From Dictyobacter arantiisoli (GTDB lineage: Bacteria > Chloroflexota > Ktedonobacteria > Ktedonobacterales > Ktedonobacteraceae): 38,289 nucleotides of DNA. The notes under the pieces were generated by a model. It worked only from the letters and a program-made list of their open reading frames with translations, was not told where the DNA came from and made no database searches. Location: contig NZ_BIXY01000070.1 of the NCBI RefSeq assembly GCF_008326305.1, positions 1 to 38,289 on the forward strand, written 5' to 3'. The translations under genes were made by a program, and so were the position numbers. This document shows, piece after piece, positions 28,960 to 35,390 of this stretch (within the stretch, counting starts at the first letter, position 1; every line of letters begins with the position of its first letter).

Positions 28960-29466
28960 TTAGTGTTCATCAAGTTTGAGAGCATCGGCGAAACGATTAA
29001 AGAAATTAAACATACCAATTACGGTGGTGAGCTCCACTATTTCGCCATCGTCGAAGTGCGCCTGGAGTTCATCGTATAATTCTTCACTTACATCGCGCGC
29101 GCTCGTGGTCATAATTTCAGCGTAACGTAAGGCTACCAATTCTCGGTCGGTAAACAGCGCTCGATGTTGATCAATATTGAAGAGCGCATCGAGCAATGCT
29201 TCATCAAGTCCCATCTGCCTTGCCAAGGCAGTATGTGCATTCTCTCAGTAGAAGCAGAGGTTTACCTGCGAGACACGAATAGCCAGCAACTCTTTTAATT
29301 GTGACTCGACTGTTCCTGTACGCATGGCGGCCTCGACCAGTTGCATAGATGCTTCCATGATAGCAGGCCGATGTGCCATCGTCTGAAAGAGCGATGTCAT
29401 GGTCGAACTGCCCGTCGTGGCGAATGTTGGTAGTGTAACCGAGTCATCGGGTTGGATGCGCGGCAT
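28960..29466 (-). CDS. AhpD/carboxymuconolactone-decarboxylase-like protein with in-frame UGA (candidate selenoprotein)
   Basis: The whole 507-nt frame encodes one AhpD-like helical protein of 168 residues, apart from a TGA at 29245-29247. Family proteins have an active site C-x-x-C-x3-H used for peroxide reduction. Here the sequence reads C71-F-Y-[UGA74]-E-N-A-H78, so the UGA stands exactly in place of the second cysteine and the histidine is kept. The frame stays intact after it (MGLDEALLDALFN..., REELVALRYAE-like core, EIVELTTVIGMFNFFNRFADAL). A hairpin starts 13 nt past the UGA. The ATG at 29466 has AGGAG upstream. Either selenocysteine is inserted, or one TGC/TGT-to-TGA mutation made a recent pseudogene; the perfect placement favours the former. 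Confidence 0.78.
29212..29235 (-). promoter_or_regulatory. candidate bacterial SECIS hairpin after the UGA
   Basis: In the mRNA, CAT-[A]-CTGCCTT pairs with AAGGCAG-ATG, giving 10 bp with one bulged A and a GGC apical loop (core CTGCCTTGGCAAGGCAG, 29215-29231). The core stem starts 13 nt after the UGA. Bacterial SECIS elements lie at this distance inside the coding region, with a bulge and a G-containing tip read by SelB. Sequence conservation of SECIS is low, so this is suggestive only. Confidence 0.45.
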
Positions 29467-29602
29467 AAATGATCTCCTCGCAGCATAAAAATACAGCAAT
29501 GATTACGTGTCCCTATTGTATGAGAGGATAACTAACCATGCAAGTCAGAGAAACAGGATCTATAGATAAACTCTACTCAAGCCTACCAAAAAAATGAGGG
29601 AA

Positions 29603-29632
29603 TTGACACACTTCAAGGCACATGTTTACAAT
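29603..29632 (+). promoter_or_regulatory. purKE promoter TTGACA-N18-TACAAT
   Basis: TTGACA (29603-29608), an 18-bp spacer and TACAAT (29627-29632) predict transcription from about 29639. That start lies downstream of an in-frame ATG at 29622 and so rules it out as the purK start, supporting the TTG at 29661. Confidence 0.66.
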
Positions 29633-29660
29633 AAGGCAGCATGTAAAGGAGAGCCAGGCA

Positions 29661-30824
29661 TTGAAGAGAGCACACGATAGTCAAGAAGCAGAAGTTATCT
29701 CTACTACCCGCATAGGCATTATCGGGGGTGGACAATTGGGTTTGATGATCAGTGAGGCGGCCCGTAAGATGGGCTTTGCCTCTGTGACCGTCCTTGATCC
29801 AACGCCGCAGTGTCCAGCCGCCAGTGTGGCGGATCAAATTGTTGGCAGTTTGAAAGATCCGGTCGCCCTGCGTCAGCTGGCCGACCGTGCGGATATTTTG
29901 ACCTACGAAATTGAGCATATTAATACAGAGGCGCTGACAGCCTTACAACAGGAGGGCGTGAAGATTTATCCCGCGCCCGATTTGCTGGCGATTATCCAGA
30001 ATAAATTCGTCCAAAAGGAATTTCTGGCCCGGCACAATATTCCTGTTGCCCCATATATGTCTATCGAGACGCCAACCGATATCGAGCAGGCCATCCAGAC
30101 CTGGGGCTATCCCCTGGTTCTGAAGGCGAAGAAGGATGCCTATGATGGACGCGGCAATGCGCGTATCAATGGGCCGGATGATATCGAGGTCGCGCTTGCC
30201 AGGCTGGGTGATCGTGAGTTGTATATCGAGAAGTGTATCGATCTGGACAAAGAGCTGGGCATTATGATTGCACGCAATGAGCGCGGCGAGAGCATGAGCT
30301 TTCCCGTCGTGGAGATGATCCACGAACGTGATATCTGTCTGAGCGTGCTGGCGCCAGCGCCCATTGCGACCTCCTTACAGCAAGAGGCAGAGCGCATCGC
30401 CCTCCACACTATCGATATCCTGCAAGGAATTGGCATCTTTGGCGTCGAGATGTTTTTGGATACAGACGGCAAAATCTGGCTGAACGAGATTGCGCCTCGC
30501 CCGCATAATTCAGGACACTATACCATCGAAGCCTGCCAGACCTCACAATTTGAAGAGCATCTGCGCGCCGTCACCAATCTTACACTAACGCCCACCACCA
30601 TGCTCTATCCCGCATCTGTGATGGAAAATATTCTTGGCGAACGCAATGGGTCCGCCATAGTGCAATGGGCGCATGATTATGATCATGCGCATGTCTTCCC
30701 TCATATCTATGGCAAGCGTGAGACCAAGATTGATCGCAAGATGGGCCATATTACCGTGGTTGGTGACAATCTAAACAGCGTCTACAAGCAAGCAAAGGAG
30801 GCGAGGGCCGAGCTCTCGATTTAA
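29661..30824 (+). CDS. purK: 5-(carboxyamino)imidazole ribonucleotide synthase
   Basis: PurK makes N5-CAIR from AIR, bicarbonate and ATP in purine synthesis. The ATP-grasp protein shows GIIGGGQLGLMISEAARKMG near the N-terminus, the PLVLKAKKDAYDGRGN loop, the metal and ATP residues in FGVEMFLDTDGKIWLNEIAPRPHNSGH and a typical C-terminal domain ending in VVGDNLNSVY. The TTG start has AAAGGAG 9 nt upstream and gives 387 residues, a normal size. The ORF can be read back to an ATG at 29622, but that codon lies within the -10 region of the promoter. purE begins 7 bp after its stop. Confidence 0.96.
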   Translation: MKRAHDSQEAEVISTTRIGIIGGGQLGLMISEAARKMGFASVTVLDPTPQCPAASVADQIVGSLKDPVALRQLADRADILTYEIEHINTEALTALQQEGVKIYPAPDLLAIIQNKFVQKEFLARHNIPVAPYMSIETPTDIEQAIQTWGYPLVLKAKKDAYDGRGNARINGPDDIEVALARLGDRELYIEKCIDLDKELGIMIARNERGESMSFPVVEMIHERDICLSVLAPAPIATSLQQEAERIALHTIDILQGIGIFGVEMFLDTDGKIWLNEIAPRPHNSGHYTIEACQTSQFEEHLRAVTNLTLTPTTMLYPASVMENILGERNGSAIVQWAHDYDHAHVFPHIYGKRETKIDRKMGHITVVGDNLNSVYKQAKEARAELSI

Positions 30825-30831
30825 GCGTACC

Positions 30832-31443
30832 ATGTCAGACGAGCAACAAGCAGTACTCACAGCCGCCAGTCAGGAACATGGCGTACTGGTTTCCGCCGAA
30901 GGGATTGGTCCCGCCGGCAAGGGCACACCCAAAGTCCTGATCACCATGGGCAGCGATTCTGATTTACCGTTGATGATGAAGGCAGTGGATACCCTGCGCT
31001 ATGAATTTAACGTTCCCTGCCTGGTCCAGATCAACTCGGTCCATCGGGACCTGCGTACAGTGGTACAGCATATCGACAATCTGCCAGAATCGATTCAGGT
31101 TGTCATCGCCTGTGCGGGCGGTGCGGCCCATCTGCCCGGCAATATCGCCGATCTGCGGGCGGATCTGCCAGTAATCGGTGTACCCCGTGATCTGGGGGCG
31201 CTCAAAGGTGTCGATGCCTTGCTCTCCATGGTCCAGATGCCCGAAGGCGCGCCCGTCGCCGTGATGGCAATTGGAGATGCAGGAGCCGTCAATGCCGCTA
31301 TTCATGCCGCCAAAGAACTGGCAATTGGCGATCCCAGCATCAAAGAACGCCTGCGTACCTATGCCGAGAAGCGCAAGAATCGCGTTGCCAGCCAGAACAA
31401 GACCCTGGAAACAAAGCTTAGCACATTTACCAAAAAGGCATAA
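30832..31443 (+). CDS. purE: N5-CAIR mutase
   Basis: PurE converts N5-CAIR, the PurK product, to CAIR. Family signatures are MGSDSDLPLM, the catalytic-loop region SVHRDLRTV (more often SAHR) and AGGAAHLPGNIA, followed by the GVPRDLGALKGVDALLSMVQMPEGAPVA core. The 203-residue chain is longer than the usual 160-180: about 30 extra residues precede the fold and a basic tail follows. The ATG lies 7 bp after purK with no strong ribosome site of its own, so translation probably relies on coupling. A strong terminator follows. Confidence 0.96.
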   Translation: MSDEQQAVLTAASQEHGVLVSAEGIGPAGKGTPKVLITMGSDSDLPLMMKAVDTLRYEFNVPCLVQINSVHRDLRTVVQHIDNLPESIQVVIACAGGAAHLPGNIADLRADLPVIGVPRDLGALKGVDALLSMVQMPEGAPVAVMAIGDAGAVNAAIHAAKELAIGDPSIKERLRTYAEKRKNRVASQNKTLETKLSTFTKKA

Positions 31444-33391: not shown

Positions 33392-33443
33392 CGATGATGC
33401 TCGCTTCTCAAAGATGCATAATAACTATAAGGGTGCACAGTAT

Positions 33444-35390
33444 ATGAATACAAATTCTCTTTCACTTGTTGAGACCTCTTCCCGGGAAGAAATTACTTCA
33501 TCTCAAAGAATCTATCAGAAAAATTGGTTTTCATTCCTTCGTTCCCCTTTATGGCTTTGTCTCCTCCTGACTATAGTCGTACGTATATGGCTTGCCTGGC
33601 ATACTCATGGAATGGCAGATGGTGATGAATATCTCGTTGGAATTCAGGCAGAACATATTTTGCAGGGTGAACATCCTATGTACTACTATGGGCAGCCGTA
33701 TATGGGTAGTGTGGAAGCATATCTTGTCGCGCTTGTCTTCAAAGTTATGGGAACTTCCAGCTGGGCCTTACGCGCAACAACTACACTACTCTGCCTGGTG
33801 CTTGTCAGTTTGACATGGCGATTAGCAGGTGCACTGGCTGACGTGGCCAGATTGCCAGCATATGCACGACGCTGGTTTCAGACTGTTGCAGGTCTCTTTG
33901 CTGCATTGCCACCCTTGTATGACACAATCGTAGAAATGCGCACCTGGGGTGGGCATATTGAAATATATATACTTTCGCTCTGGCTGCTACTCTCCGCTGT
34001 TCGTCTTACGCAACGTTGGAAAAAAGGAGCATCCGGACTAGAGATGGGGTTGCGCTGGCTCATCATTGGTTTTATCATCGGTTTTGGTATATATATCTAC
34101 CCAATAATTTCTTATGCTATCCTAACCGCTGTAGTATGGATCGCTGGCTATCTAATGATGAGCATCACACGCACATTTCACCATCTTCCCTTTTCCGATG
34201 AGCCAGCACTTCCAATTACCATACACATACGAAATCTCGCGCTCGTATTGGTCGCAATCCCCGGTGCCCTGCTGGGTTTCTCGCCTTCTCTGTACTACGG
34301 TATAAAACACAACTGGGTTAATATTGCCTATCTGACGGCACCAGGGAGTGATGGAGGGGGCGACGTTGCATTTCATACTGCCTATTCTACCTCTACTATA
34401 TTACAGGGAAGGGCCAGCTATTATATGAACTGCATAAGCCCCCAGGTCATTGGCGGCTCAATGCATACAGAATCAGTGACACATGCCAGCCCTGTTACAT
34501 TTGCAATTCTAATAACGCTTGGCATTGCATGTATCGCTATCGTCGGCCTTTTACTTCTCGCATCGCTAGTAATTAAGCAGCGGCTTTTATGGCAAATACA
34601 AAAAATGTCGGTGTTGCCTTGCATTTTCGCGCTCACAACCATTCTCATCTTTATTTTTAGTAACGCAGTGGGCTATAGCATTTTCAAACCTTGTATACAT
34701 GATGGAGTAGGGCGCTACGCGGCACCAGTGGTACTTGTGCTGCCATTCTTCATGGCGGCGCTCATCACATTCACACGTATGTTAATAGAACAGAGAAGCA
34801 TGCAACAGTCAACATCGAAAATGGCATCCCTAACATCAAATAGTAGTGCTTATATTTATACTGACAGAAAAAAATACTCACCTACCTTCAAGATAGCGCA
34901 GGGCGTACTGGCTGGCTTCGTGCTGTGCTATCTTTGTCTCCAGGGTTACTCATATCTCAAGAGTGATGCCAACTATACGTTCCAATCGTTCAATTGTCTC
35001 CTCGCGCCAGTCAATCCCACTCCAATGATCAATTACATGCAGCAAGAACATATTACACGCGTCTGGTCAACACCTTCCTTTGGAAATGCCATTACCTTCA
35101 AAACAGATGGAAAAATCATTGCGGTCAATCCCCGAACAGTTGCATTTGGAACAATAAATCGTATTCCAGAATACACAACAATCGTCGCGCATGCATCATT
35201 CGTTAGCCTTATTGATCAGGTTCCACATGGTGATCCGACTTCTCTTCTACTTACCTACTTGAATAAAGCCCATGTGAAATATCGTGTGGCTCGCTTTCAA
35301 ACACAACCTGGAAACCAGGATATGCTGGTTGTAACGCCTTTAAGTCGCACACTTACACCAAAGGAGGCGACCCTGGAAAATTATTGTTAG
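33444..35390 (+). CDS. GT-C fold membrane glycosyltransferase, copy 2
   Basis: The 648-residue polytopic protein has an acidic pair Asp61-Glu62 in MADGDEYLVG in the first outside loop, then MYYYGQPYMGSVEAYL, nearly the same block as in the protein at 16912-18723. Later regions differ (VEMRTWGGHIEIYILSLWLLL, a long soluble C-terminus), so the two are distant relatives. It probably moves sugars from a lipid carrier to an outside acceptor. ATG at 33444 has AAGGG 10 nt upstream; an ATG at 33414 would add 10 residues. Codon use is more AT-rich than in most neighbours, possibly indicating transfer. Acceptor unknown. Confidence 0.85.
   Translation: MNTNSLSLVETSSREEITSSQRIYQKNWFSFLRSPLWLCLLLTIVVRIWLAWHTHGMADGDEYLVGIQAEHILQGEHPMYYYGQPYMGSVEAYLVALVFKVMGTSSWALRATTTLLCLVLVSLTWRLAGALADVARLPAYARRWFQTVAGLFAALPPLYDTIVEMRTWGGHIEIYILSLWLLLSAVRLTQRWKKGASGLEMGLRWLIIGFIIGFGIYIYPIISYAILTAVVWIAGYLMMSITRTFHHLPFSDEPALPITIHIRNLALVLVAIPGALLGFSPSLYYGIKHNWVNIAYLTAPGSDGGGDVAFHTAYSTSTILQGRASYYMNCISPQVIGGSMHTESVTHASPVTFAILITLGIACIAIVGLLLLASLVIKQRLLWQIQKMSVLPCIFALTTILIFIFSNAVGYSIFKPCIHDGVGRYAAPVVLVLPFFMAALITFTRMLIEQRSMQQSTSKMASLTSNSSAYIYTDRKKYSPTFKIAQGVLAGFVLCYLCLQGYSYLKSDANYTFQSFNCLLAPVNPTPMINYMQQEHITRVWSTPSFGNAITFKTDGKIIAVNPRTVAFGTINRIPEYTTIVAHASFVSLIDQVPHGDPTSLLLTYLNKAHVKYRVARFQTQPGNQDMLVVTPLSRTLTPKEATLENYC

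Follow-up and report, generated by a model that had tools for sequence, protein, structure and literature searches.

The UGA codon of an AhpD-like gene

The locus considered here raises the question of whether a lone in-frame UGA, standing at an active-site cysteine position of an AhpD-like gene, is a lesion, a regulated stop or a codon for selenocysteine (Sec). The gene lies in a 38,289-nucleotide stretch of Dictyobacter arantiisoli DNA (contig NZ_BIXY01000070.1), referred to below as the window, where the minus-strand frame runs from ATG (29466–29464) to TAA (28962–28960) with TGA (29247–29245) as its sole interruption (Table 1). Read as Sec, the codon gives a 168-residue product with the active-site motif C71-F-Y-U74-E-N-A-H78. 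A sequence-only reading of the window had described, giving no strand, one TGA in an otherwise intact frame and had placed it exactly at the second cysteine of a C-x-x-C-x3-H site; both points were borne out on the minus strand. The plus-strand reading of 28960–29466 holds several stops and was rejected as a gene.

Table 1. Coordinates of the gene and its predicted elements in the window
Feature	Position	Strand	Evidence
Predicted AhpD-like CxxU selenoprotein gene, 168 codons and TAA stop	28960–29466	-	Open save one TGA; Pfam CMD PF02627, 4.7e-14; 43 orthologues aligned; purifying selection on both sides of TGA
UGA codon predicted to be read as Sec, residue 74, second Cys of C-x-x-C-x3-H	29245–29247	-	TGA in 42/43 orthologues, TGC in 1/43
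Cys71 codon, first Cys of the CxxU pair	29254–29256	-	Invariant, 43/43; matches Cys48 of PA0269
Glu59 codon, predicted proton-relay glutamate	29290–29292	-	12 before the first Cys, the spacing of Glu36 of PA0269; invariant in a 21-row alignment
His78 codon, predicted proton-relay histidine	29233–29235	-	His in 40/43, Gln in 3/43; matches His55 of PA0269
Bacterial SECIS-like hairpin, 7-bp stem and GGC loop	29215–29231	-	Stem 13 nt and loop 20 nt after UGA; pairing, covariation, RNAalifold, covariance model
Probable ribosome-binding site with GAGGAG, upstream of ATG 29464–29466	29473–29482	-	By inspection only

Conservation of the UGA among relatives

A search of 60 related genomes recovered the same in-frame TGA in all genomes of the same genus and family and in the majority of those from the order, the relatives including Dictyobacter aurantiacus, D. 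kobayashii, D. vulcani, Tengunoibacter tsumagoiensis and Ktedonospora formicarum, with 86% identity for the orthologues of the first three; a search of plasmids returned only relatives less than 60% identical. In an alignment of 43 orthologues from the same order (44–86% identical, the window gene included), the column of codon 74 holds TGA in all members except one, which has TGC (locus L058 of genome G031). The TGA-bearing orthologues come from four families and from independent assemblies, several of which consist of a single contig or only a few. Homologues have either a conserved UGA or a Cys in line with codon 74, the latter including homologues in the PDB; the sequence-only reading had proposed looking for Cys here. 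The first cysteine of the motif is invariant, and the histidine is replaced, by Gln, only in three distant f2 orthologues.

Comparison with four genomes of the same genus gave synonymous differences near saturation (pS 0.69–0.86), with pN of 0.08–0.21 before the TGA and 0.08–0.10 after it. The combination of high pS and low pN downstream of the TGA indicates that the frame beyond it is under selection as protein, and the recurrence of TGA at one column in 42 of 43 orthologues, with synonymous sites so nearly saturated within the genus, excludes chance. Divergent purK and purE genes lie near the gene in several relatives, so that those copies are orthologous by position too; in the window the pair (purK, ATP-grasp; purE, AIR carboxylase; 29622–31443, plus strand) adjoins the AhpD-like gene. 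Elsewhere in the window, a 658-residue frame (33414–35390, plus strand) has no Pfam match.

A tree of 68 sequences unites the 43 orthologues in a single group with good support and places the Cys proteins of family f24 on the next branch. The Cys protein L058 falls among the Sec proteins, its position within the group being poorly supported, and is most simply explained as a Sec-to-Cys replacement. Very divergent paralogues are placed unsurely on long branches of the deep tree, and for this reason no count of Cys/Sec changes is claimed outside the main clade.

A covarying hairpin downstream of the UGA

The sequence just after the UGA (CUGCCUU-GGC-AAGGCAG, 29231–29215), which also encodes T-A-L-A-R-Q, can fold into a short hairpin. 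Bacterial SECIS elements are described by a consensus of a 3–9-nt loop with G in its first two positions, an upper stem of 4–16 bp, a loop 16–37 nt from the UGA and a minimum free energy of −7.5 kcal/mol or lower (PMC13188914); the window hairpin falls within every numeric rule, with a 3-nt loop beginning GG, 7 bp, a loop at 20 nt and −10.3 kcal/mol. That energy belongs to the structure predicted by RNAfold, 10 pairs with a bulged A (z −2.07), and, as 8 of 200 shuffles fold as stably, the hairpin is only moderately unusual by energy alone.

It is covariation, not energy, that makes the hairpin convincing. Across 38 distinct sequences, pairing holds in 99.6% of stem cells, and both partners vary in three of the seven pairs (UA/CG, CG/UA and UA/CG); none of 500 shuffles reaches the observed pairing, the two-sided changes or the covariation score, and slid stem registers pair far worse. 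RNAalifold returns the same seven pairs, the GGC loop is invariant in all 42 TGA-bearing genes, and a stem mismatch occurs in one orthologue (L032, G–A at one position). The sequence-only reading had placed a 10-bp bulged hairpin 13 nt after the UGA. RNAfold likewise draws 10 pairs with a bulged A, but relatives do not share the three lowest of these (CAU/AUG): conservation extends to the 7-bp core alone, and it is this stem that starts at 13 nt. The codon on the 3′ arm is AGG, AAG, GGG or GAG (Arg, Lys, Gly or Glu) and fits the 5′ arm each time: at this codon, the protein sequence bends to RNA pairing.

Searched against its own genome, a covariance model of the hairpin (R1) scored the window gene, itself a training sequence, at 57.3 bits and the next match at 17.9 bits, so that no other gene of that genome carries the same hairpin above chance; the SECIS sequence is accordingly particular to this gene and, taken alone, points to no further selenoproteins. 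The 7-bp stem went unreported in an inverted-repeat scan because it is too short for the 9-base seeds used.

Selenocysteine machinery and natural controls

The genome of D. arantiisoli holds a tRNA-Sec that exceeds the Rfam cut-off, at 67.8 bits, and to which ARAGORN assigns a UCA anticodon; selB as a 653-residue frame (370 bits over both stretches, cut-off 242); selA (571 bits); and selD (384 bits). The sequence-only reading had named these genes as ones to look for, and the absence that would have told against it did not materialise. E-values for tRNA-Sec do not discriminate by themselves, a loose search matching all 14 control genomes, and reliance was therefore placed solely on matches above the cut-off, ARAGORN, selA and selB. 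Among the TGA-bearing genomes, selA is present in all save three fragmentary ones (G019, G039 and G044), which have a strong tRNA-Sec, and the four without a strong tRNA-Sec (G007, G030, G035 and G043) have selA and selB.

Several relatives serve as natural controls. In G031, of the same order, TGC replaces TGA and the hairpin is gone (ACCGCGATTGCCCGGCAG), with selA, selB and tRNA-Sec kept; the Cys orthologues of family f24 are likewise without the hairpin, and selA is present there too. Three relatives from the order (G029, G038 and G040) have neither a TGA orthologue nor selA and selB, each absence being weak on its own given that these are draft genomes, 79–92% complete. Paired Sec and Cys orthologues, in which the SECIS is lost with Sec, provide a clean natural test of the reasons for keeping Sec at the second AhpD cysteine. 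Further AhpD-like paralogues, in which an in-frame TGA at the corresponding place makes the motif C-H-Y-U, were observed in G031 itself (L098) and in G030 (L074).

Alternative readings of the UGA

In a single genome, one change of a Cys codon to TGA, be it in a pseudogene or through a sequencing error at a true TGC or TGT codon, would look much like the gene described here. The chance of this is negligible given a TGA common to orthologues of four families in independent assemblies, strong purifying selection on the codons either side of it, and a covarying hairpin that a broken or misread gene would not be expected to keep; the sequence-only reading had named TGC or TGT at this site as evidence against itself, and the sharing among assemblies excludes it. 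A kept in-frame UGA nevertheless leaves the inserted residue unnamed, and a suppressor might insert Trp or Cys at the UGA, or UGA might be a general sense codon. This is highly improbable, as many orthologues of the order use UGA for their terminal stop, homologues have Cys at the aligned site, the genome encodes the complete Sec machinery, and the hairpin accompanies the UGA and is lost with TGC; four other CMD-family genes of the same genome also carry plain Cys codons in CxxC and no internal TGA, which argues against TGA as a general sense codon.

Decoding of Sec is generally inefficient and selenium-dependent, and to that extent the UGA could act mainly as a regulated stop, the chief functional protein then being a 73-residue N-terminal product and read-through by Sec a minor event. 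Protein conservation downstream of the UGA is equal or stronger, however, and a product ending there would lack the second active-site residue together with half of the fold, making such an arrangement very unlikely. The gene is instead predicted, with a probability of about 0.96, to encode an AhpD-like selenoprotein with Sec specified by UGA 74. The selenoprotein interpretation first offered for the locus is in this way supported by the conserved UGA, the covarying hairpin and the Sec machinery, and the in-frame stop, first noticed in one genome, almost certainly is a genuine codon for selenocysteine.

Predicted structure and active site

AlphaFold2, with Cys in place of Sec, gave an all-helical model (pLDDT 81.4, pTM 0.78) whose best match in the PDB is Pseudomonas aeruginosa AhpD PA0269 (2o4d, 2ijc and 7xw1), at 38% identity and an rmsd of 1.9. 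The proton relay of PA0269 comprises Glu36, Cys48, Tyr50, Cys51 and His55 (PMC3141380), and Glu59, Cys71, Tyr73, Sec74 and His78 of the window protein share its spacing exactly, in keeping with the AhpD-like site Glu-x11-Cys-x-(His/Tyr)-Cys-x3-His; the two proteins are alike in fold and in the five relay residues and differ at the second cysteine position, which is Cys in PA0269 and predicted to be Sec in the window protein. In three f2 orthologues (L066, L067 and L076), Gln stands for the relay His and the relay Glu is missing, with C-x-x-U and a SECIS with co-varied pairs kept.

Under the selenoprotein interpretation, SelB carrying Sec-tRNA-Sec would be recruited by the GGC-loop hairpin downstream of the UGA, and decoding of UGA 74 as Sec would yield the full-length, all-helical AhpD-like redox protein (CMD superfamily, peroxidase-related), with the Cys71-x-x-Sec74 pair set in a Glu-Cys-Tyr-Cys-His proton relay. 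Most likely, a Cys–Sec selenenylsulfide would be formed and re-reduced during hydroperoxide reduction or electron transfer to a partner, as in AhpC/AhpD. A role as hydroperoxide reductase or AhpD-type adaptor, with a putative reductant partner, is probable; the activity is inferred from PA0269, itself a weak peroxidase (PMC3141380).

Relation to known AhpD-like selenoproteins

By profile, the product matches Pfam CMD (PF02627) at 52.6 bits (gathering cut-off 23) and the AhpD core model TIGR00778 at 43.8 bits (cut-off 27.8). Against the peroxidase-related enzyme model TIGR01926, it scores 79.0 bits, just under the curated 81.8, and is a close relative of that family, not a formal member. Its best NCBIfam match is NF053654 (GroundWater_YciW, a YciW-related (seleno)protein; E = 2.4e-25, residues 30–165), yet at 89.3 bits against a cut-off of 310 the gene is no member by that model. 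NF041238 (AhpD_rel_CFYUT, Sargasso hypothetical protein 1) shares the C-F-Y-U motif and an AhpD-related domain, and is matched at 52.5 bits against a cut-off of 175; that model spans 357 positions, compared with 168 residues in the window protein.

Selenoproteins of the AhpD-like CxxU type have been reported from the Sargasso Sea (2005), bacterial genomes (2006) and the GOS set (2008), under COG2128/YciW and TIGR01926 (PMC1088965, PMC2398784, PMC9312934, PMC13188914), and a 2026 review lists them with TIGR01926, PF02627 and NF041238. The window gene resembles the Sargasso and GOS proteins in its AhpD/CMD family, in Sec at the second CxxC position, in a SECIS just downstream and in widespread Cys homologues; it differs in falling under the TIGR01926 cut-off and in belonging to a clade in Ktedonobacterales, the comparison with published members being one of descriptions, not sequences. 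A literature search combining Ktedonobacterales with selenocysteine returned nothing, and no paper on the Ktedonobacteria clade was found; one paper uses Ktedonobacter AhpC, merely as a homologue in a figure. The gene therefore belongs to an already recognised kind of selenoprotein, and what appears to be new is the Ktedonobacteria clade below curated cut-offs.

On balance, and somewhat tentatively, these orthologues appear to constitute an order-level clade of AhpD-like selenoproteins that is as yet undescribed, spans Ktedonobacteria and close relatives, and stands apart from curated (seleno)protein families. In this clade the SECIS would govern residue 83 (R, K, G or E, depending on how the stem pairs), and one lineage that keeps the Sec machinery would have exchanged Sec for Cys and lost the SECIS. 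A well-sampled selenoprotein clade (42 genomes) is thereby added in Chloroflexota; as it lies just below curated annotation cut-offs, such genes may be annotated as two fragments or as a pseudogene. A second, distant AhpD-like family with C-E-F-U or C-P-F-U motifs, about 27–30% identical and not found in the window's own genome, was seen in relatives at genus, family and phylum level (L070–L073 and L075, in G008, G025, G001, G003 and G058), where an in-frame TGA is followed by a different downstream hairpin.
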